The notes below the pieces were generated by a model. That model did not search any database. It worked only from the letters and a program-made list of their open reading frames with translations, and had not been told where the DNA came from. Shown piece by piece: positions 6,655 to 61,418 of a stretch of DNA of 64,000 bases; position 1 is the first letter of the stretch, and each line of letters opens with the position of its first letter. The translations under genes were made by a program, and so were the position numbers. Source of the DNA: Flavobacteriales bacterium UBA1494 (lineage in GTDB: Bacteria; Bacteroidota; Bacteroidia; Flavobacteriales_E; Vicingaceae); NCBI GenBank assembly GCA_905182175.1, contig CAJJAT010000001.1:1-64000 (forward strand), read 5' to 3'.

Positions 6655-8198
6655 CTTAATGAAGGGTCTGTTTTTACAAGTCTATAAATCGGAAGCTCTG
6701 CTCCCTGTTCGGTTTTTATTACTTCAAAAGTGATAAAGCTATTTTTAACCTCAGGCTCTAACACTTCCATTGCCATATTTGCATTGGATTGGTTCATTTT
6801 TACAACAGCCGTGCCTTTTGGAAAGCTCTTGTTGATACTTTTTAATTTTGTATTTACTGTTTGTCGATTGACTCCTTCATATTTTTTCGCTTCTTTTTCG
6901 TATTCCGTAACCGTATAACTCTGCACTTCAAATTCCTTTTCTTCCTCCAAAAGTAAAAGGTCGATTCCAAGGATTTTTAAACGATCTATAATTGCTTTTT
7001 CTTCCGGTAAAATGAAGTAAGCAAAAGGCCTTGGACGCTCCTTCAGTAGTTGTAATTCCAAAGCATCACGAATGGTAACTTCAAAGTTGATGGCCTCGTT
7101 TTTATCCAAGTCAATGGTTTGTATCGTGTCTTGGTAGACTTTCCTTTTTGTATTTAATGCCGCATTAACCTGAGCTTTCTCGGCCTTCACTATTTCTATT
7201 TTCAGCTCATCCCAGTTATCGTAAGCAGTTTTCAGATAAGCAAGTGAGATTAGAAAAGCACTTTGAATTCTTCTTTTAAACGAAGTCCGTCCAATTCCAA
7301 CCCCTCTAATTTCTACCAAGGTAGAAACACAATTAGTAAGGGCGTAAGAAGTTGCACTGGAACGAGAACTTTCGGAGCCTTGGTTAAAGTGAATGTTGCC
7401 CAAATGTTTGGTCGTACTTATATAATCGTGGTGCAATAACTCATTCTCATCTAGCACTTTATGCGCAGCGGTTACAAAGCGGTCTTTGGTGTATTTGCGA
7501 AGGCTTTCAGGCACATTTAAATTGCCAGAATACAAGAACATGGCATCGTAAGCTGAAGTAATTCCATAGGTACTTAAAGCGGTAAAGTCCTTCCTATACG
7601 GTTTATATTCATGTAAATCTAGCGCCACTTCTGCACCAAAATCACTAAAGGCTTGCTTTAAAAAAACACTCTCCTTAATGTTTAGCTTGGTTTGATCTCG
7701 GTTTAAATCCAAACCATTTGCAGCATATCTATTTTCCTTTTCATAGCCATCAATATTGGCCATCGGAATCAATTTTATTTCTAGTTTGTCGAGTAAATAG
7801 GCATATTCTGAATTGTTAAGTAGTTGTTCAATCAGGTATAACACACTCTCAGTGCTGCCCATTTCGTTTCCGTGTAAGCCACCTTGAATCCAGACTTTCA
7901 CCTTATCTGTATTGCCGTTTTTCTTATTCAAATGAACCATCGGAATTTCTTTGTCCTTTTGGCTCGTTCCAATAAAGCTCATGCTCATTAATTCTTTATG
8001 GTTGTTGGTCTTCTCGCTTAGAAAGCTGAGCAACTCTTCATAACTAGTGTACCCTTTCTTTTTCTGAAAAGCGGGGGTATTGATGGTAATATCTAATTCA
8101 GGGAAAAACTTTTCAGTTACTTTTTTTGATTGTGGATTCATCTGTGCCTTGCAAGTGGCAGCGACAAAAACGAAGAGAAGGAATGCTATTCTTTTCAT
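6651..8198 (-). CDS. M14-family zinc carboxypeptidase, exported
   Basis: This 515-aa exported peptidase has a hydrophobic N-terminus ending VAATCKAQ, so a signal peptide and possibly a lipoprotein cysteine at 16. The M14 zinc site is complete: H109 and E112 in GGLHGNEMGS, and H196 in DLHEYKP. The substrate arginine lies in GLDLNRDQTK and the catalytic glutamate is E297 in TLVEIRG. The C-terminal 200 residues form an additional domain of unknown role. It would cleave C-terminal residues or side-chain-linked groups in the periplasm. It overlaps the downstream porin by 4 bp and follows the upstream porin by one base, placing it in the DcuC-IadA-porin operon. Confidence 0.9.
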   Translation of the reverse strand: MKRIAFLLFVFVAATCKAQMNPQSKKVTEKFFPELDITINTPAFQKKKGYTSYEELLSFLSEKTNNHKELMSMSFIGTSQKDKEIPMVHLNKKNGNTDKVKVWIQGGLHGNEMGSTESVLYLIEQLLNNSEYAYLLDKLEIKLIPMANIDGYEKENRYAANGLDLNRDQTKLNIKESVFLKQAFSDFGAEVALDLHEYKPYRKDFTALSTYGITSAYDAMFLYSGNLNVPESLRKYTKDRFVTAAHKVLDENELLHHDYISTTKHLGNIHFNQGSESSRSSATSYALTNCVSTLVEIRGVGIGRTSFKRRIQSAFLISLAYLKTAYDNWDELKIEIVKAEKAQVNAALNTKRKVYQDTIQTIDLDKNEAINFEVTIRDALELQLLKERPRPFAYFILPEEKAIIDRLKILGIDLLLLEEEKEFEVQSYTVTEYEKEAKKYEGVNRQTVNTKLKSINKSFPKGTAVVKMNQSNANMAMEVLEPEVKNSFITFEVIKTEQGAELPIYRLVKTDPSLR

Positions 8199-8199
8199 A

Positions 8200-9534
8200 T
8201 TAAAAGGACAATGAGGTTATGATTCGTGCAATCCATTCGTCTCCGCCAATTGGGTCACTGTTGAGATCGTTTATACCTCCATCGGCATCAACATACGTGA
8301 AGGAACCCTGAACTTTGATTCCATAACTTCTATCGAAATACTTAGACACTCCAATCGTATAATATTCTGGACGATTATAAAAGGTTCCATTGTTCAAGAA
8401 AGAGTGTTCGTCGGCATCGATATACGTGTAACGACCATCTATCGACCATAAGCTTTTAAATAAGTAGCCAGCCTGGATATTAAACGCCTGCCCCAGCATC
8501 ATTCTACCTCTTACAAAATTTTCTACGTCCTGAACGCCTTCAACCTCTAAAGCTCTAGAAGTACTTCCGTCATTTCTGACTCGCTGAGTGATATTATCAG
8601 GAACATCAGCACTTGAGCCTGCAAATTCGCCCAACATAGAGAATCCTTTGTATTTAAAAAGGAAATCAACTCCGTATTTAGTGTAGTCTGGCAAAGCTAC
8701 ATTATTCATATCATCTAAATAAAGAATAGCACCACTAGCTCTTCCCCTTCGGCTACTCATGCCATTGTTAACACTATAAGTTCCTCCAACTACTAGTTTA
8801 GGCGTATTCTCACGAACCATATCTACTTGACGGAATTGACCGAACCTTGTAAAAAGTCCAAAGGGTAAAAAGTCTAGTCTACCTCCATACTTTAATCCTC
8901 CAAAATCGCTGCCAAATACGTTTAATCCGTCGCCATTGGTAAGGGTAAAAGATGGTTTGATGTACGCTACAGGACCTAGTTTATAAGACCCTTCTAAAAA
9001 TATTCCAAACTCTCGGATGCTGGCAAAAGCAGATGTCAATCGACTTCTTTCGACTAACTGCAGTGTATGGGAACCCATATATAATTCTCGGTTGTCGGTC
9101 GGGGTTGCCCGTTGTCCAAATGTAATGCGCGTTCTTTTGGTGATGCTGTAACGAACCCAAGCATCCAATATAGGCGCATCCGATCCGTCGTCTCCAACTT
9201 CTCCGGTTCCACTTAAGTCGACCTGAAAGCGGTAATCAATTTTATATTTTTCAGCATCACCGGTTAAGCGCAAACGGAATCGTCTTAATCTAAATCGAGT
9301 TAAATTGTTGTCTACTCCATCCCCCGTTGAGTTTTTTAGTTCAATAAAAGGTTGAACATACCCTCTAAGGTTAATGGAATAATCCTCATTCCCGGAAAAG
9401 GTTAACCCCTCAGCAAAGTTGTACTTGTTCAGTTTTGGATTTTGAGCATGAAGCTTTAATGCGGTCAATAAAACCACAATAATTAGTGAAATTAAAACCT
9501 GAAATCGGTTTGAGGTGCCATTTATTTTTGTCAT
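8200..9534 (-). CDS. OprP/OprO-like outer-membrane porin (copy 1)
   Basis: This 444-aa protein has a signal peptide (hydrophobic residues about 12-29, ending KLHAQ) and an OprP-type beta-barrel. Recognisable are INLRGYVQPFIELK near the start, TRFRLRRFRLRLTGDAEKYK, the FGQRATPTDNRELY segment and the terminal strand ARIITSLSF. It shares the layout and several strands (GGLKYGGRLDFLPFG, YKGFSMLGEFA) with the porin at 5401-6654, so the two arose by duplication within the operon. The start overlaps the amidohydrolase stop by 4 bp. The basic stretch after residue 80 would line the pore and favour anionic substrates. Confidence 0.87.
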   Translation of the reverse strand: MTKINGTSNRFQVLISLIIVVLLTALKLHAQNPKLNKYNFAEGLTFSGNEDYSINLRGYVQPFIELKNSTGDGVDNNLTRFRLRRFRLRLTGDAEKYKIDYRFQVDLSGTGEVGDDGSDAPILDAWVRYSITKRTRITFGQRATPTDNRELYMGSHTLQLVERSRLTSAFASIREFGIFLEGSYKLGPVAYIKPSFTLTNGDGLNVFGSDFGGLKYGGRLDFLPFGLFTRFGQFRQVDMVRENTPKLVVGGTYSVNNGMSSRRGRASGAILYLDDMNNVALPDYTKYGVDFLFKYKGFSMLGEFAGSSADVPDNITQRVRNDGSTSRALEVEGVQDVENFVRGRMMLGQAFNIQAGYLFKSLWSIDGRYTYIDADEHSFLNNGTFYNRPEYYTIGVSKYFDRSYGIKVQGSFTYVDADGGINDLNSDPIGGDEWIARIITSLSF

Positions 9535-29648: not shown

Positions 29649-30451
29649 ATGAAAAAATTTCTGCGTTTAGCGCTGCTTTTACCTTTAGTCGCAACAGCTT
29701 TTCAACCTTGTAAAAAGAAAAACGACAAGACTACCGTTTTGTTATTGTCCCTTTCTTAAGATGCCAGTTTGGGTAAAGAAGTGCAGCAAGAGATTTTCAA
29801 TAATCCACAACAATATCCATTGTTAAATTCGGTACAATACGCCTCAGCTTATATTACCTAAGAGGTCTAAAGGGTTCAATTATAAATACATGAAAAATTG
29901 ATTGTAAAGGTGAATTTTGTTTGGAAAGTATACATCATGCAAGATGATGCTACCTTGAACGCTTTTGCAATACCTAGTGGTTACATGTACTTTTGCACTG
30001 ATTTTATAGAATACTTAGCAAACGAAGATGATTTAATGGGAGTTATGGGCCATAAAATGGCACATTCGGATAAAAACCATTCAGTACAACAACCGCATCG
30101 ACATTGTAGTGTAAATTTATTATTATCCATTGCTTTTGGAAATGAGCCTAATCAAGCGGCACAAATACTGACAAGCCTAGGTTCTCTAACATTTAGCAGA
30201 AATGCCGAAACTGAAGCAGATGAAGAATCAGTTAAATACCTAGCAAAAATACCCATCATTGTGATGAAGCTGCAACATTCTTTAAAAAGTTAGCTGCGCC
30301 TAGTCAAAGTGGTGGTCCAGTATTTTTAAGCACTAACCCATCGCCTTCAGATCGAATTGAAAACATAATCGCCAATGCTACTGTGTTGAGTTGTGACACG
30401 ACCTTTCATGCCCCTTCTAGTTATCAAACATTCTTAAATTCACTTCCATGA
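29649..30451 (+). pseudogene. Dead M48 metalloprotease lipoprotein
   Basis: The frame opens with a lipoprotein-like signal (MKKFLRLALLLPLVATAFQP then C) and stops after about 36 codons. The remaining parts appear in changing frames: NAFAIPSGYMYFCTDFIEYL, then GVMGHKMAHSDKNHS, FSRNAETEADEESVKYLA and finally TNPSPSDRIENIIANA with a stop at 30451. This is the order of an M48 (YfgC/Oma1-type) protease. The catalytic glutamate of HExxH is mutated to lysine (HKMAH, 30051-30065), in addition to frameshifts and stops, so activity is lost at several levels. Confidence 0.85.
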
Positions 30452-30530: not shown

Positions 30531-31004
30531 ATGAAAAAATTAGCAATAGCATTTTTTAGTATTGCCACCATAACAGTATTAAGTTCTGCTATATCAGACA
30601 CTAACTGTGATACTAAGATTCTTAAAAAAGAAGGAATTACAGAATTAAACCCTTTCTACTATTCTGCATCTAAGGTTAATGTGGTTAATTATGATTATCG
30701 AGCATCTCGAAAGGAAATAGAAGTGCCCCTTTTCAAAGGAGAGAAATACAAGATGGTATTTAACAAAAAAGGATTGCCTAAAGACGTTGTTGTTGACATT
30801 TTTGACAAAGATAAATCTCATGCTAACAGAAAGTCTCTTTTTACCTCCGAAGGAAATAGTGCTGAAATTATATCTTACTCTCCTGAAAAATCAAAAAAAA
30901 TGTACGTTCGGTACACTATTCCAAAAGCTGATAAAGTTAAAGAGAGTGGATGCATTGTTTTTATCTTAGGTTATCAGTTAACCTTTGTTACAGAAGAAAA
31001 GTAA
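30531..31004 (+). CDS. Small exported beta-sandwich-like protein, pair A
   Basis: This 157-aa protein has a signal peptide (MKKLAIAFFSIATITVLSSA). The mature protein is beta-rich (KEIEVPLFKGEKYKMVFN, VVVDIFDKD) and ends ESGCIVFILGYQ. That end and the overall layout match the 141-aa protein at 57834-58259 (QSGCAVLLVGFKP). In both places it is adjacent to a member of one lipoprotein family, here 25 bp upstream of the lipoprotein gene. I do not recognise a named domain; a small ligand-binding or structural partner of the lipoprotein is inferred. Confidence 0.65.
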   Translation: MKKLAIAFFSIATITVLSSAISDTNCDTKILKKEGITELNPFYYSASKVNVVNYDYRASRKEIEVPLFKGEKYKMVFNKKGLPKDVVVDIFDKDKSHANRKSLFTSEGNSAEIISYSPEKSKKMYVRYTIPKADKVKESGCIVFILGYQLTFVTEEK

Positions 31005-31029
31005 GACCAAACAAAAAAAGAAGTAGGAT

Positions 31030-31908
31030 ATGAAAAAAATAAACAATATAGCAAAAACGTGCGTATTTATAGGCGCAACAAGTTTCGTTTTTGCTTGTAC
31101 AGACGCACCGAAACAGAACGAAACAACTACAGATGTTTTTGAAGTTGAAGAAATAGTCGAAGAAGCACCAATAGAAACAGAAAGTATGGAACATGATTTC
31201 GTTCTCCCCTCTCCTATCCAGATTGCTGCAATGTTTAACCGTTCAGGTTTAAAATTTGAAGGTGGTATTGCCAACCCAACGAGTAACCTGAGTAACTACA
31301 ACACTAAGACCGCAAGGTATTTAAACTTTGGCGTTTACAGTGCAGACCTTGCTTATGCAGTTTTAAACAGCGAACGCCAGGCCTCATTAGACTATATAAA
31401 CGTCGTGAGAGACCTATCTGATAAAATCGGAATGCCGAGCATTTTTGATGGAGGAACTTTATTGACTAGTTTCGAAAAGAACATCGACAATCAAGATTCC
31501 ATTCTTGCCATTTTAACCACAATCAAAAGCAGAACAGATGACTATTTAATGGAAAATAATGATGCATCTAAAGAGGCAGTATTTTTTGCTGCTGCTTGGG
31601 TTGAAGGGATGTATTTAGGGTCTATAAGTGCAACTTCGGAATCCTCTATAACTCCAAGAATTATAGAGCAAATGTCTATTCTTCACAATGTAATTGGTGC
31701 TGTTAAGGCTCAAAATGATGAAAGCTTAGATGTGAGTTTTTTAGTGAAAGGTTTGGAAGAAATTCAAGATACATTTGAAGGCTTCGAAGAAGTAAAAAGT
31801 TTAGACAACCCTGAGGTTTCATTTTCTGATATTAACTTGACAAACGAGGAAATAACCTTACTAAATCAAGAAATTGAGACATTAAGAACTGCTATAATTA
31901 ACGGCTAA
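31030..31908 (+). CDS. Helical lipoprotein, pair A (paralogue of 56902-57825)
   Basis: This 292-aa protein has a lipoprotein signal (FIGATSFVFAC, cysteine about 19) and an acidic linker (about 30-52). The helical domain contains LPSPIQIAAMFNRSG, LNFGVYSADLAYAVL, IFDGGTLLTSFEKN and AAAWVEGMYLG. The same blocks occur in order in the lipoprotein at 56902-57825 (VPSPIQTAFLLKNSG, LNLGVYGADMGYATI). The genome thus has at least two copies, each with a small secreted partner. It is known to me only as an uncharacterised Bacteroidetes family. A terminator follows directly. Confidence 0.75.
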   Translation: MKKINNIAKTCVFIGATSFVFACTDAPKQNETTTDVFEVEEIVEEAPIETESMEHDFVLPSPIQIAAMFNRSGLKFEGGIANPTSNLSNYNTKTARYLNFGVYSADLAYAVLNSERQASLDYINVVRDLSDKIGMPSIFDGGTLLTSFEKNIDNQDSILAILTTIKSRTDDYLMENNDASKEAVFFAAAWVEGMYLGSISATSESSITPRIIEQMSILHNVIGAVKAQNDESLDVSFLVKGLEEIQDTFEGFEEVKSLDNPEVSFSDINLTNEEITLLNQEIETLRTAIING

Positions 31909-31926: not shown

Positions 31927-31954
31927 GCCCTGCTTTAAGCGGGGCTTTTTTTTT
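31927..31954 (+). terminator. Intrinsic terminator after lipoprotein pair A
   Basis: GCCCTGCTT pairs with AAGCGGGGC (one mismatch/wobble), followed by nine T residues. Confidence 0.9.
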
Positions 31955-54973: not shown

Positions 54974-55085
54974 GTTGCAAACTTACATATTCCTGCCTTT
55001 GCTATACAAGGTGATTTGTTCATAAAGTATTCAATAAATTTGATTGTTGGAAGTTGTTTTTATAATCTTTGAAAAAACAATCCGC

Positions 55086-56852
55086 ATGACCTTAGCTTTC
55101 TTAGATTGGATAATTATTGTTGCCTATTTAATTCTTGCCTTTGGCATTGGTTTTTTGTATAAAAATCAAGCAAGTAAAAGCTTGAGCGATTTTTTTTTAG
55201 GCGGCAGAAATTTGCCTTGGTACATCGCAGGAATTTCAATGGTAGCTACCACCTTTGCTGCAGATACTCCACTTTGGGTAACAGAAGTAATTGCTCAACA
55301 TGGTGTTTCTGGAAACTGGCTTTGGTGGAATATGTTAATTGGTGGAATGCTCACCACCTTCTTTTTTGCAAAGCTTTGGCGAAGAGCTGAAGTTGTAACT
55401 GAATTAGAATTTATTGAATTGCGTTATAGTGGCAAGCCTGCAGCATTTTTAAGAGGTTTCAAGTCTGTTTACATGGGAATATTTTTAAACGCCATTGTAA
55501 TTGGCTGGGTCAACGTTGCATTGGCATCAATTTTAAAAGTTTTTTTTGATATTCCTGACGAAATAGTAATTTGGGTAATTGCTGGGGCAATGGTATTTGT
55601 TGCAATTTACTCCACTCTTTCAGGTTTATTGGGTGTTGCCATGACAGATTTTGCTCAATTTTTTATTGCCATGGCAGGCTGTATTATTCTAGCCATTGTA
55701 GTATTAAATACCGACAAGGTAGGCGGAATTCCAGGCTTAAAAGCGCAACTTCCTGCTTGGAGGTTTAATTTTTTTCCAAAAATTAACACAGGTTCAGTAG
55801 CAGAAGACATTGGAACCTTCAGCGTTACTGTTGCTGCATTTTTAACATTTGGATTAGTACAATGGTGGGCCAGCTGGTATCCAGGTGCAGAGCCCGGTGG
55901 GGGTGGATACATTGCCCAAAGAATGATGAGTGCTAAAGATGAAAAAAATGCAATTTACGCCACGCTGTTCTTTCAGGTGGCACATTACTGCCTTCGCCCA
56001 TGGCCATGGATAATTGTTGGTTTATGCACGTTGGTGTTATACCCAGATTTACCCATTGAAGACGCAGGCCAAGGCTTTGTTATGGCGATGAAAGACTACC
56101 TACCTCCTGGGCTAAAAGGTTTGCTATTGGTAGCATTTTTATCGGCTTACATGAGTACTATTTCAACACAATTAAATTGGGGATCAAGTTATCTTACCAA
56201 TGATTTGTACAAGCGATTTTTTAAACAATCAAAAGAAAACGAAACAGAAGAAGATGAACAAAAAGATTATGTTCAAAAAGCAAGACTTTTCACTGTGTTA
56301 ATAATGCTTGTAGCTTTGTTTGCCACAACACAAATTTCGAGTATTGATACTGCTGCAAAATTTATGATTGAATGCGGAGCAGGATTGGGAATGGTTTTGA
56401 TATTACGATGGTATTGGTGGCGAATCAATGCGTGGAGTGAAATTACTGCAAGTATAGCTCCTTTTTTAGGTTACTTTATTTCAAATTATTTATTAGCATT
56501 AGACTATCCTTTCAATTTCCTCTTTACTGTGGGATTTAGCACAATTTGTTGGTTAATTGCGACATTAGTAACTGTACCAACAGATGAAGAAACGCTACAA
56601 AATTTTTATAATAAAGTAAAGCCCGACGGTGGTTGGAGTAAATTTAGAAAACCAGAAGACCCTAAAACGAAACTTGCTCCTCTTTTTATTTGCTGGATTA
56701 GTTCCATAGTAATGGTGTATTCCATCTTATTTTCTATTGGAGATTTTATCTTTTTAAACTTTGAAGATGCGGTATTAGAATTTTCAATTGCAGTAATTTC
56801 ATTTTTAATGCTAAGATTTCAGTTGAAAAGAACTCGAATTTTTGAGATTTAA
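55086..56852 (+). CDS. Sodium:solute symporter family protein
   Basis: This is a 588-aa SSS-family transporter with about 13-14 helices. The start at 55086 (MTLAFLDWIIIVAYLILAFG) is chosen; the longer frame uses TTG. Typical are SLSDFFLGGRNLPWYIAGIS, then MVATTFAADTPLWVTE and a large WYPGAEPGGGGYIAQRMMSA loop. The substrate (sugar, amino acid or carboxylate) cannot be read from the sequence. The gene is followed, 49 bp on, by the lipoprotein gene of pair B. Confidence 0.88.
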   Translation: MTLAFLDWIIIVAYLILAFGIGFLYKNQASKSLSDFFLGGRNLPWYIAGISMVATTFAADTPLWVTEVIAQHGVSGNWLWWNMLIGGMLTTFFFAKLWRRAEVVTELEFIELRYSGKPAAFLRGFKSVYMGIFLNAIVIGWVNVALASILKVFFDIPDEIVIWVIAGAMVFVAIYSTLSGLLGVAMTDFAQFFIAMAGCIILAIVVLNTDKVGGIPGLKAQLPAWRFNFFPKINTGSVAEDIGTFSVTVAAFLTFGLVQWWASWYPGAEPGGGGYIAQRMMSAKDEKNAIYATLFFQVAHYCLRPWPWIIVGLCTLVLYPDLPIEDAGQGFVMAMKDYLPPGLKGLLLVAFLSAYMSTISTQLNWGSSYLTNDLYKRFFKQSKENETEEDEQKDYVQKARLFTVLIMLVALFATTQISSIDTAAKFMIECGAGLGMVLILRWYWWRINAWSEITASIAPFLGYFISNYLLALDYPFNFLFTVGFSTICWLIATLVTVPTDEETLQNFYNKVKPDGGWSKFRKPEDPKTKLAPLFICWISSIVMVYSILFSIGDFIFLNFEDAVLEFSIAVISFLMLRFQLKRTRIFEI

Positions 56853-56901: not shown

Positions 56902-57825
56902 ATGTTAAAAACAAGCTTAATTAGTTCGAAAATATTCCTAAAAAAGTTAGGTGCGGTAGCAGCGGTTTCTCTGTTTTTGGTTGCTTGCGTAGAAGAAACC
57001 AAAAGAGATAGTAAAACCGACAAAAAAAAAGTTGAGAAAAAAGTGGTAGAGAAAGATGCAAATCTGCTTAAAATTGGCGGCAAAGTGTTTAGCGTTCCCT
57101 CACCTATTCAGACAGCATTTTTGTTAAAAAATTCAGGAGCAGCATATTCCTCTGAAATGTTAAGCAGTACTGCAAATGCATCCAACCTATCTACTAGTGC
57201 TAAGAAAGCCTTGAATTTAGGAGTTTATGGCGCTGATATGGGATATGCAACTATTTATGACCAAACACAAGACGCTATTTCCTACATGGCAATTACCAAG
57301 AAAATTTCTGCTGAATTAGGAATGACTAATATTTTTGATGCTTCTATGATAACAAGGTTTGAGGCTAATCTGGGAAATCAAGACTCATTACTTGCTTTAG
57401 TCTCGGATGCATTTAAATCAGCCGATAGCTACCTTAAAACAAATGAACAAAATGATTTAAGCGTTTTGATCTTGGCAGGTGGGTGGATTGAAACACTCCA
57501 CTTTGCAACTAATATTGTGAAGTCGCAGGATGACCAAAACATTAAAAATAGAATTGGAGAACAAAAAATTACCATCAAGAATTTAATTAATTTAATGTTG
57601 CCATATCAAGATAAGCTACCAGTAGGAGCTATAATTAATAGCCTCAATGAACTAAGAGATATTTACGCAAACATTGAATTTAACTACTCCTATAAAGTAT
57701 CTTCAACAAATGAGAAAACAAAAACCACTACAATTAACAGTACTTCTAAAGTGTCGATGACTGCTGAACAATTGGCTGACATCTCAGCTAAAGTTGAAGA
57801 CATTAGAAAAAGTATTTTAAACTAA
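56902..57825 (+). CDS. Helical lipoprotein, pair B (paralogue of 31030-31908)
   Basis: The start at 56902 (MLKTSLISSKIFLKKLGAVA) gives 307 aa with lipobox SLFLVAC (Cys about 29) and a Lys/Glu linker (KKKVEKKVVEKD). The domain repeats the blocks of pair A: VPSPIQTAFLLKNSG, LNLGVYGADMGYATI, GMTNIFDASMITRFEANLG and LAGGWIETLHFA. It is co-transcribed with the small secreted protein (8 bp gap), in the reverse order to pair A. An ABC transporter gene follows. The family is uncharacterised to my knowledge. Confidence 0.75.
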   Translation: MLKTSLISSKIFLKKLGAVAAVSLFLVACVEETKRDSKTDKKKVEKKVVEKDANLLKIGGKVFSVPSPIQTAFLLKNSGAAYSSEMLSSTANASNLSTSAKKALNLGVYGADMGYATIYDQTQDAISYMAITKKISAELGMTNIFDASMITRFEANLGNQDSLLALVSDAFKSADSYLKTNEQNDLSVLILAGGWIETLHFATNIVKSQDDQNIKNRIGEQKITIKNLINLMLPYQDKLPVGAIINSLNELRDIYANIEFNYSYKVSSTNEKTKTTTINSTSKVSMTAEQLADISAKVEDIRKSILN

Positions 57826-57833
57826 ACATTACA

Positions 57834-58259
57834 ATGAAAAGATTTATTTTCAAATATACGTTACTAACAGCTATTTTAACTGTAACGTCATTAAGTTCGA
57901 GTGCTCAGTGTGACACTATTGCTGCTGTTTGTGGTGAAAACTTCTCAAGAGAATTTCTTTCGGATGGACAGGAGTATAGGGCTCTGTTGTTTGATGATCA
58001 AACGTCTGAATTTCATTTGACCTTGTACGGTCAAAGTACCTATCGTTTTGCAGCTTGTAGTGGTTTAACAAACGGAAATATGTTATTTAGAGTTTACGAC
58101 GAAGAGAGAAACGAAATATTTATAAGTTCTGACCATGGAAACGCTCCATATTGGAATTTCGAAGTTACATCAACTATAGATGTTGTAATTGAAGGAAATC
58201 TAAATTTAGACGAAGTCCAGTCAGGCTGTGCCGTCCTTTTAGTTGGTTTTAAACCTTAA
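57834..58259 (+). CDS. Small exported beta-sandwich-like protein, pair B
   Basis: This 141-aa protein has a signal peptide (YTLLTAILTVTSLSSSAQ). The mature protein has four or more cysteines (CDTIAAVCGENF, FAACSGL, QSGCAVLLVGF) that may form disulfides. Strands include AYRFAAC-type and MLFRVYDEERNEIFISSD. The C-terminal block QSGCAVLLVGFKP matches ESGCIVFILGYQ of the pair A protein at 30531-31004. It is the partner of the upstream lipoprotein. A terminator lies 20 bp after its stop. Confidence 0.65.
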   Translation: MKRFIFKYTLLTAILTVTSLSSSAQCDTIAAVCGENFSREFLSDGQEYRALLFDDQTSEFHLTLYGQSTYRFAACSGLTNGNMLFRVYDEERNEIFISSDHGNAPYWNFEVTSTIDVVIEGNLNLDEVQSGCAVLLVGFKP

Positions 58260-58277: not shown

Positions 58278-58310
58278 GGAAGCAGGATTTTTAAATTCTG
58301 CTTTTTTTTT
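58278..58310 (+). terminator. Intrinsic terminator after pair B
   Basis: AAGCAG-ATTT and AAAT-CTGCTT pair around a short loop, followed by ten T residues. It separates pair B from the ABC transporter gene. Confidence 0.8.
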
Positions 58311-58352: not shown

Positions 58353-61300
58353 ATGAGTGAGAAAATTTTAAAGGCCCTAATGCAATTATTTGCAATTGTG
58401 GCAAATGTTGGAAGAGATGATTCTAACACTAAAGAATTTGTTTCTCAATTCCTTAACGAGCAACTTAACAAAGAGCTAGTAAATGAGTATTTACTAGTTT
58501 ATGACAGATACTACAACGAGCAAAATAAAAAAAGAGAAGGAGCAAAAGCTAAAAAACGCACATCACTCAATTCAGTTAAAATATTAAAGATATGTGCAGA
58601 GATTAATAAAGAACTTACGCAGAAGCAAAAAGTCTACGTTCTTGTTCAATTACTCGAATTTATATTCTTGAACAACAACGATACAGATCAAGCAATTGAG
58701 TTTGTTGAAACTGTTGCTGATTCTTTCAATATCAACTCAAAAGAATATAAATTAATCATGGAGTTCATTAGCGCTCCCAAAGAGGAACTAACGAAGACTG
58801 AGAGTATTCTGTTGATAAACAACCATAATAAAACTGCAGGCGAACACAACCACATAAAAGCTGATGGGATTGATGGGCAAGTTCGAATTTTAAGAATTCC
58901 GAGCGTTGATATGTTTTTCTTGAAATATTTCGGAAGGACGGAACTTCAGCTAAACAGTCAATTAATTAAGCCTATAAAATCATATGTATTAACACAAGGA
59001 TCTTCATTAAGAGGGTCAAAGGTTGCTCCTATTTATTACAGTGATATTATAAGCATCTTTCTCAGTGATTTAGACGTTGAAAAAACGACGTTTAGTGTTA
59101 AAAAGATTACCTACAAATTCAAGAATGGTAACATAGGTTTACACCCTATGAATTACGAAGAAGAGTCGGGTAATTTGATTGGGATTATGGGTGCAAGCGG
59201 CGCTGGAAAGTCAACTTTGCTAAATGTTCTTAACGGAAATTACAAACCCTCGACCGGAGCTGTAAAAATTAACGGTTTCGATATACATGACCCTGTTAAT
59301 AAAGATATAATTGAAGGTGTAATTGGCTATGTATCTCAGGATGATTTGCTTATTGAAGAATTAACTGTCTTTCAGAATGTATTTTACAATGCTAAATTAT
59401 GTTTCGGCGACCTTAAAGATAGAGAGATTATAAAACTCACTTTTAAAGTTTTAACTAGCCTAGGTCTATGGGAAACTAGAAACTTGAAAGTTGGAAGCCC
59501 ATTAGAGAAAACGATTAGCGGTGGCCAACGAAAAAGAGTAAACATAGCTTTAGAGTTAATTCGGGAGCCTTCTATAATGTTTGTCGATGAGCCTACTTCA
59601 GGTCTTTCCTCAAGGGACTCTGAAAACATTATGGATTTGTTGAAAGAACTTACCCTTCGTGGTAAACTAATTTTTGTTGTTATACATCAACCTTCGTCAG
59701 ATATTTTTAAAATGTTTGATAAATTAGTTATTCTTGATACCGGTGGCTACCTCATTTACAACGGAAACCCAGTCGATGGAATTGTTTATTTTAAAGAGCA
59801 AATGCATCAGGCAAATGCCTCTGAAAGTGAATGTTTTAATTGTGGAAATGTTACACCAGAGCAAATTTTCAATATCATTGAATCTAAGATATTGGATGAA
59901 TATGGCAACCAAACAGATAAACGAAGAGTCGGTCCAAGGGATTGGTACGCGATTTACAAAGAGAATGTCAAATTATTAGCCGCTGAAAAGAAAACTAAAA
60001 TCAACGAGAATCCTAGAAAAAGTTTAAAAATCCCTAATGCTTTTAAACAATTCAAAGTCTTTATTGCCAGAGATATTCTTTCTAAGTTGACGAACAAGCA
60101 ATACCTGCTGATTAACTTTTTAGAAGCCCCTGTTTTAGCATTCATACTATCTTTCATTATTCGATACTCCAACACGGATCAAGCAGAGAATACAGGTTAC
60201 ATTTTCCGTTCAAACGAAAACTTTACAGCTTATATTTTTATCAGTGTTATTGTTGCCCTCTTCTTAGGTTTAACAGTAGCTGCAGAGGAAATAATCAGAG
60301 ATCGAAAGATTCTAAAAAGAGAAAAGTTTCTAAACCTTTCCAAGGGGAGCTATTTGTTTTCTAAAATATTTATCATGTTCGCCGTATCGGCTGTTCAAAT
60401 ACTCACCTACGTTCTGGTTGGTAATTCCATACTAGGTATTCAGGGCATGTATCTAGAGTATTGGATCATCTTGTTCTCGGCAGCTTGCTTCGCTAACATG
60501 CTGGGATTAAACATCTCTTCCACCTTTGATTCTGCCGTTACCATTTATATACTAATCCCATTTTTAGTAATTCCACAACTTATGTTGAGCGGCGTAATTG
60601 TAAAATTTGAAAATTTGAACCCTACTATCACTATTCAGGATAAGGTTCCATTTGCAGGAGAAATAATGGTGTCCAAATGGTCTTTTGAGGCCTTAGCCGT
60701 AAAGCAGTTTAAAAACAACAAGTACAATCAACATTTCTTTTACATTGATAAGGATATAAAAACAGTAAATTTTAGAAAAAATTATTGGCTAAGTAGACTT
60801 AAAGACAGAATCAACTTTGTAAATAGAGAATACAACAACGAAGAAGAGAAAGAAAACATAACAAACGGTGTTAAATTATTATTTAACGAGATTAGTAAAG
60901 AAAATGCTAGAAATGAAGACTTGGTTTTCGAAAATATAGAAGCTCTTAGCAATGGAGTTCCCTCGAAAGAAGTGTTAATAGAAGTTTCTGATTATTTCAA
61001 TGACTTGAACAAACACTACATTAGAAAGTACAGAGAATACAATGATGAGAAAGATCATTTATTAATTGAAATGAATGATACACCAGAGAAAAAAGCAGCA
61101 TTTATTAAATTAAAAGATGACTATGCTAATGAGTCTTTAGAAGCTTTGATGACCAATAAAAATGATTTAAATAAAATTATTGAGTGGGAAAATGAGTTGA
61201 TTCAACGAGCAAATCCTGTTTATAAAGACCCTAAAGGTTTTAGATCGCATTTCTTGGCTTCCTCCAAGAAACTATTTGGGTATTACTTGACCACTTTCTC

Positions 61301-61418
61301 TGCCAACTTATTAGTAATATGGGGATTTAGTGTTTTCTTAGCAATTACGTTGTATTACGATACCTTGCGTAAGCTATTGAATACATTAGGTAAACTGTTT
61401 AAAAAGAGTAAATACTGA
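58353..61418 (+). CDS. Large TerB-like/ABCG-type ABC transporter
   Basis: This is a 1021-aa membrane protein. Residues about 1-140 are helical and resemble TerB-like domains (MQLFAIVANVGRDDSNTKEF, KQKVYVLVQLLEFIFLNN). A small beta region follows (150-245, FHA-like by layout). The ATP-binding domain has Walker A GASGAGKST at about 280, signature ISGGQRKRVN at about 390 and Walker B IMFVDEPTSGLSS at about 410. An ABC-2 membrane domain comes next, interrupted before the last helix by a long charged coiled coil (about 800-960). The subunit is a half-transporter of the ABCG type and probably dimerises. The substrate is unknown; it follows lipoprotein pair B. Confidence 0.85.
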   Translation: MSEKILKALMQLFAIVANVGRDDSNTKEFVSQFLNEQLNKELVNEYLLVYDRYYNEQNKKREGAKAKKRTSLNSVKILKICAEINKELTQKQKVYVLVQLLEFIFLNNNDTDQAIEFVETVADSFNINSKEYKLIMEFISAPKEELTKTESILLINNHNKTAGEHNHIKADGIDGQVRILRIPSVDMFFLKYFGRTELQLNSQLIKPIKSYVLTQGSSLRGSKVAPIYYSDIISIFLSDLDVEKTTFSVKKITYKFKNGNIGLHPMNYEEESGNLIGIMGASGAGKSTLLNVLNGNYKPSTGAVKINGFDIHDPVNKDIIEGVIGYVSQDDLLIEELTVFQNVFYNAKLCFGDLKDREIIKLTFKVLTSLGLWETRNLKVGSPLEKTISGGQRKRVNIALELIREPSIMFVDEPTSGLSSRDSENIMDLLKELTLRGKLIFVVIHQPSSDIFKMFDKLVILDTGGYLIYNGNPVDGIVYFKEQMHQANASESECFNCGNVTPEQIFNIIESKILDEYGNQTDKRRVGPRDWYAIYKENVKLLAAEKKTKINENPRKSLKIPNAFKQFKVFIARDILSKLTNKQYLLINFLEAPVLAFILSFIIRYSNTDQAENTGYIFRSNENFTAYIFISVIVALFLGLTVAAEEIIRDRKILKREKFLNLSKGSYLFSKIFIMFAVSAVQILTYVLVGNSILGIQGMYLEYWIILFSAACFANMLGLNISSTFDSAVTIYILIPFLVIPQLMLSGVIVKFENLNPTITIQDKVPFAGEIMVSKWSFEALAVKQFKNNKYNQHFFYIDKDIKTVNFRKNYWLSRLKDRINFVNREYNNEEEKENITNGVKLLFNEISKENARNEDLVFENIEALSNGVPSKEVLIEVSDYFNDLNKHYIRKYREYNDEKDHLLIEMNDTPEKKAAFIKLKDDYANESLEALMTNKNDLNKIIEWENELIQRANPVYKDPKGFRSHFLASSKKLFGYYLTTFSANLLVIWGFSVFLAITLYYDTLRKLLNTLGKLFKKSKY

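Follow-up and report, generated by a model that had tools for sequence, protein, structure and literature searches.

A 64,000-nucleotide stretch of DNA (the whole of the stretch analyzed, here called the window) carries a lipoprotein gene and the gene of a small exported protein side by side at two places. The question raised by this arrangement is whether such a pair forms a stand-alone surface unit or belongs to a larger envelope system. The strongest functional lead for the pair is an ABC transporter encoded beside the second copy.

Paired lipoproteins and small exported proteins

At copy A, the gene for smallA (157-residue exported protein; positions 30531..31004, forward strand) precedes that for lipoA (292-residue lipoprotein; 31030..31908, forward strand) by 25 bases. 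At copy B, lipoB (56902..57825, forward strand), a paralogue of lipoA with 307 residues from its ATG and a reading frame already open from a TTG at 56842, comes first, and 8 bases separate it from smallB (141 residues; 57834..58259, forward strand), a paralogue of smallA with orthologues in most relatives. All four are open reading frames, and the gene order in the window is thus opposite at the two copies, as an earlier note on this DNA had stated. The reading frames and the sequence blocks shared by the lipoproteins, also described in that note, were found again, and lipoA and lipoB are homologous (29% identity over 247 residues, E 6e-37). The note had made its reading depend on homology of the small proteins as well. 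SmallA and smallB have only 17% pairwise identity (single-comparison E 0.003), but profile-profile comparison relates them with a probability of 97.4 and an E of 1e-11 over 137 columns, as that reading requires. The count of two pairs is right for the window but not for the genome, which has a third pair on contig C14 (locus L005) consisting of a small protein that contains a long acidic insertion (7069-7755) and a lipoprotein (7757-8650). By profiles, the small proteins A, B, and C are homologous to each other with E values of 1e-11 to 5e-11. The best reading is that the A and B pairs are paralogues of one envelope module.

The pairing is general. In a sample of 184 distinct lipoprotein relatives, which includes 40 divergent matches added deliberately against close-relative bias, a small protein adjoins the lipoprotein on the same strand in 168, the co-occurrence that the earlier note had proposed to look for. 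These 168 comprise 144 lipoprotein-small protein arrangements, 12 in the order small protein-lipoprotein, 8 tandem arrays, and 4 that also lie behind the ABC transporter gene. At some loci one lipoprotein gene is followed by two or three small-protein genes, or lipoprotein-small protein units are repeated in tandem. A detectable small partner is missing for 16 of the 184 lipoproteins (individually inspected in part), and some of those border the ABC transporter directly. Among the named records, the small partner is present at 78 of 80 loci, and one of the remaining two is cut by a contig end. An unrelated, coiled-coil-like exported protein follows a partnerless lipoprotein at L194 (3447-3830) and L196 (3427-3924), where the partner has possibly been replaced. 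The claim that the pair is conserved but its order is not holds for the pair; the order has not been repeatedly shuffled, since small protein-lipoprotein order represents one change on the lipoprotein tree, in the copy-A clade. The copy-A order may have been left over from a tandem array of the kind seen at L103 and L119.

The two partners have also diverged together. A mirror-tree test that covered 67 pairs in 23 genomes gave a correlation of r = 0.88 between the distance matrices; when paralogues are swapped within genomes, a control for the species tree, the mean is 0.09 and the maximum 0.415, and none of 5000 draws reaches the observed r. The partners have been kept matched through duplications and are inherited as a unit. 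Joint inheritance of neighboring genes is in itself no proof of binding; the lipoprotein and the small protein are nevertheless likely to interact physically. A conserved functional pair is strongly supported by these sequence comparisons. The earlier description of a functional two-component surface unit therefore stands as regards the conserved pair (168/184, r 0.88), whose surface location is putative, but overlooks the ABC transporter and the Sia switch described below.

LipoA has a lipobox (...FVFAC) at residue 23, an acidic linker, and an all-helical domain from residue 60. Its AlphaFold2 model (mean pLDDT 85.9) has only helices from about residue 60, with the acidic linker before them disordered. 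PSP, G101, D106, Y109, N151, D156, L173, W190, E192, Q214, and R286 are invariant in 34 lipoproteins. A strict pattern finds the lipobox in 149 of 181 lipoproteins; of the remaining sequences that were listed, most are lipobox-like as well. The lipobox Cys is followed mostly by G, then by G/S, and then by D/E, with no clear surface-export motif, and the lipoprotein is presumably anchored in the outer membrane. When all alignment members were compared with Pfam and NCBIfam, the lipoprotein and small-protein families each gave scattered weak matches to one or a few members only, and a PDB sequence-profile search returned nothing significant for either family. Foldseek gave no match to the lipoprotein model at an E below 1. 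The VIA matches of the model (best Z 8.2, partial, designed bundles) were rejected as lying in the chance range for helical proteins. No relative of lipoA was found in viral contigs.

The N terminus of smallA is a signal peptide followed by CDT. In its AlphaFold2 model (mean pLDDT 87.6), a short helix precedes a beta-sandwich of eight strands. The top structural matches (Foldseek/VIA) are to the GOLD domains of p24 proteins (Z 9.3-9.5; 91-98 residues aligned at 2.2-2.8 Å), followed by PPC-like and other sandwiches. The small protein is predicted to be a GOLD/PPC-like beta-sandwich, a widespread fold that says nothing on function. Among 36 small-protein members, the GOLD/PPC Pfam models have no sequence match at E 0.1. 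At L144 (7268-7762), L152, and L171, an extra exported protein of 164-169 residues, of unassigned family, follows the copy-B smallB; in L144 and L171 it sits between smallB and the ABC transporter.

The ABC transporter beside copy B and its shared distribution

The earlier note placed copy B directly before a large ABC transporter, and the gene next after smallB is indeed that of a 1021-residue ABC transporter (58353..61418, forward strand; open reading frame and Pfam). Its Pfam domains are an ABC_tran ATPase (263-416, 1.3e-29) and ABC2_membrane (566-757, 2e-19), with an N terminus of 245 residues preceding the ATPase. The N terminus of a distant homologue matches Pfam TerB (7.7e-7), and an alignment of 17 homologues has a common first part of the N terminus and then a short beta-rich stretch. 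Judged by these homologues, the window ABC transporter probably has a TerB-like N-terminal region and a short beta-rich segment. Among PADLOC defense models, the four pair proteins have no match and the matches of the ABC transporter are to a generic ATPase. Longer TerB-ABC proteins of 1201-1309 residues occur in family f68, which belongs to another class (L241:13206-17135, L234, L239, and L240), and these loci are accompanied by a weak lipoprotein relative without a clear lipobox.

In 43 of 44 relatives, the ABC transporter gene is directly downstream of the copy-B small protein (median gap, 92 bp). Lipoproteins that adjoin the ABC transporter in other families, in the orders ABC-lipoprotein-small protein and lipoprotein-ABC, share one clade with lipoB. 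Genomes usually have two to six lipoproteins as against one or two such ABC transporters, and no such transporter lies near copies A and C. A patatin-like protein follows the ABC transporter in several relatives.

The lipoprotein and the ABC transporter are distributed together. In a class sample of 395 genomes, 193 have both, 13 the lipoprotein only, 6 the ABC transporter only, and 183 neither (phi 0.90; Fisher 2e-87, a value that ignores shared ancestry). Ten of the 13 lipoprotein-only genomes are less than 90% complete; three that are at least 90% complete (G059, G370, and G640) have the lipoprotein without an ABC match. In a phylum sample of 296 genomes, each at least 90% complete, the lipoprotein and ABC searches returned the identical 7 genomes, two of which belong to another class (f68) and have weak matches to both. 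Among the 60 nearest genomes, the lipoprotein occurs in 52 and the ABC transporter in 48, and the 8 without the lipoprotein all lack the ABC transporter. Families f5, f15, f20, and f89 each mix genomes that have both with genomes that have neither, which indicates joint gain or loss. The genetic coupling of the pair and the ABC transporter is well supported, and the pair very probably belongs to the same biological system as the transporter. Roughly one in two genomes sampled from the class carries the lipoprotein and small-protein families, usually in several copies, and cultured carriers include Crocinitomix algicola, Marinilabilia salmonicolor, and Anaerophaga thermohalophila.

An intrinsic terminator (31927..31954, forward strand; 8-bp stem and 9 T, -14.3 kcal/mol, z -3.6) lies after lipoA and before thrS (31967), and the A pair thus probably forms a transcription unit by itself. 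A second hairpin with a T run (58278..58310, forward strand; -11.8 kcal/mol, z -3.0) lies between smallB and the ABC transporter gene and is a possible terminator or attenuator in the source genome. Given these two hairpins, co-transcription of either pair with its downstream gene is not assured. The frequency of a Bacteroidota-type promoter pattern is no higher than chance. A functional linkage of copy A with thrS-infC-rplT was considered and rejected as mere synteny, as it is found only in the A lineage and a strong terminator stands before thrS. Neighboring genes for peptidase S41, polA, surE/lpxB, patatin, and a Na+/solute symporter are lineage specific and, apart from patatin as a weak hint of a lipid theme, were not used for the mechanism. 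In the window, the sodium/solute symporter-like gene (55044-56852) is directly before lipoB and is kept there in several relatives (cluster c6). Upstream of smallA (29650-30430) is what looks like a pseudogene of an M48-like metallopeptidase, degenerate and with in-frame stops, in which HExxH reads HKMAH.

Linkage to the SiaB/SiaC switch

The ABC transporter gene has further neighbors. SiaC (PF09345) and a SiaB-like protein (DUF6272, PF19788) are encoded next to it in many genomes, and SpoIIE phosphatases are present at some loci. SiaC is within 1.5 kb of the ABC transporter at at least 19 of 55 ABC loci, and in family f15 the genes form a codirectional, operon-like array in the order SpoIIE-SiaB-SiaC-ABC-lipoprotein-small protein. 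In the source genome (G000), the SiaB-like gene is directly before that of SiaC on a contig (C12) apart from that of the window. SiaC is present in 51 of the 52 nearest genomes that have the lipoprotein and in none of the 8 that lack it. In the phylum sample, it is present in all 7 genomes with the lipoprotein and the ABC transporter and in 10 others, of other classes, without either. In such SiaC-only genomes, SiaC can adjoin a diguanylate cyclase-like gene (L259, a reading of the sequence), as in Pseudomonas. Directly after a lipoprotein-ABC locus, at L250 (7746-9899), one gene encodes both a SpoIIE phosphatase and a region similar to the GldM N terminus (Pfam 9.9e-15); its GldL match is weaker and below cutoff. 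Parts of the gliding/T9SS motor are here unusually joined to a partner-switch phosphatase.

In P. aeruginosa, the phosphorylation site of SiaC is T68, within LLYLNTSSIK; its state is set by SiaA and SiaB, and SiaABCD controls aggregation (PMC7647112). The context of the phosphorylation site is kept in the source genome, where it reads YFNTSSSK. The gene linkage suggests, with somewhat better than even confidence, that the Sia switch regulates the system. A literature search on TerB-ABC proteins, GOLD-like bacterial lipoprotein partners, and SiaC in Bacteroidetes found nothing relevant.

Because the ABC transporter shares the phyletic pattern of the pair and is adjacent to it, together with SiaB/SiaC, the pair seems to belong to a larger envelope system and not to be a two-component surface unit that stands by itself. 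The coupled genes point to an unstudied machine of the cell envelope that many Bacteroidota share. Two families with no Pfam or NCBIfam model and no solved relative are now tied to one ABC transporter and to SiaB/SiaC, a link that turns several proteins without an assigned role into one testable system.

A candidate export system, its rivals, and known relatives

On balance, we favor a model in which a Sia-linked ABC exporter system has the pair as its outer membrane and periplasmic components. The phosphorylation state of SiaC would be set by the SiaB kinase together with a SpoIIE-type phosphatase, and SiaC may control the ABC transporter via the TerB-like N-terminal region. The transporter, presumably working outward, would export a hydrophobic or lipid-linked substrate, which the small protein and the lipoprotein would receive or hold at the outer membrane. 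Copy B would be the transporter-proximal pair, and copy A and the C14 pair would be diversified versions or acceptors at other loci; one or two ABC transporters would need to serve several pairs. ABCG-like transporters often carry hydrophobic or lipid-linked substrates, and this habit together with the patatin-like neighbor (weak evidence) is the reason for suggesting such a substrate; lipid-type export is a tentative proposal that we would sooner doubt than accept. Less likely again in all its particulars is an export machine in which the SiaC switch gates the TerB-ABC exporter and the exporter delivers to interchangeable lipoprotein/beta-sandwich pairs, each paralogue being specific for a cargo or a site.

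Surface adhesion is the rival to this model that survives best. The pair complex would be displayed for cell-cell or surface contact upon activation by the Sia switch, and the ABC transporter would export something else in the same program. Genomes do carry several diversified paralogous pairs, SiaABCD governs aggregation in P. aeruginosa (PMC7647112), and GOLD, PPC, CUB-like, and other sandwiches that serve in binding are similar to the small protein. However, that resemblance is to a common fold with no function shown, a clear surface-export motif after the lipobox Cys is absent, and adhesion does not predict the tight linkage between the copy-B clade and the ABC transporter. We regard it as rather unlikely.

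It is more improbable still that the pair is functional and unrelated to the ABC transporter, their common distribution reflecting only the shared deep ancestry of the carrier lineages. The positive genomes are clustered phylogenetically and copies A and C are at housekeeping loci, as this explanation would have it, but joint presence and absence varies inside f5, f15, f20, and f89, and even the distant f68 genomes have weak matches to both proteins. Moreover, different families place the ABC transporter right beside lipoproteins in at least three ways (lipoprotein-small protein-ABC, ABC-lipoprotein-small protein, and lipoprotein-ABC). A toxin-immunity or contact-dependent competition pair, which the several paralogous copies of two small, neighboring exported or envelope proteins and a weak match of lipoA to the MakE cytotoxin (E 0.031, far below its cutoff) might recall, is already disfavored and scarcely credible given the export signals on both partners, four pair proteins without a defense-model match, and loci that are syntenic across many families (thrS, polA, and ABC) and broadly conserved, unlike variable weapon loci.

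The exporter model can be compared with known systems at several points. The lipoprotein shares a helical build and its occurrence in Bacteroidota with DUF3829-like Bacteroides proteins (3rh3; 3iee is another Bacteroides helical protein), but the structural scores are weak (Z 5.8 and 6.8) and within the chance range for helical bundles, no sequence relation was found, and DUF3829 is not among the Pfam families listed for 34 lipoprotein members. The small protein is like GOLD and PPC domains in its predicted fold and has no sequence match to any such family; unlike those domains, it stands alone as an exported protein of bacteria, has a helical N terminus of its own, and ends in a conserved GC..hhxGY. 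The ABC transporter recalls the Rv1747-type ABCG-like exporter of Mycobacterium tuberculosis, which likewise has an ATPase and ABC-2 region behind N-terminal regulatory domains and is linked to phospho-threonine signaling (PMC5549992). Rv1747 differs in its FHA domains and Hanks kinase and in the lack of an outer membrane lipoprotein partner, whereas the N terminus here appears to be TerB-like; export of PIM by Rv1747 is itself only proposed (PMC5549992). The closest parallel in regulation is the SiaABCD pathway of P. aeruginosa (PMC7647112, PMC8457831); SiaC, SiaB-like proteins, and SpoIIE phosphatases are encoded beside this ABC transporter too, and the phospho-threonine context is conserved. 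The output of the P. aeruginosa pathway is the diguanylate cyclase SiaD, whereas the neighbors here are an ABC transporter, a lipoprotein, and a small protein. Thus, a switch known from the control of biofilms by c-di-GMP may have quite a different output in these bacteria.
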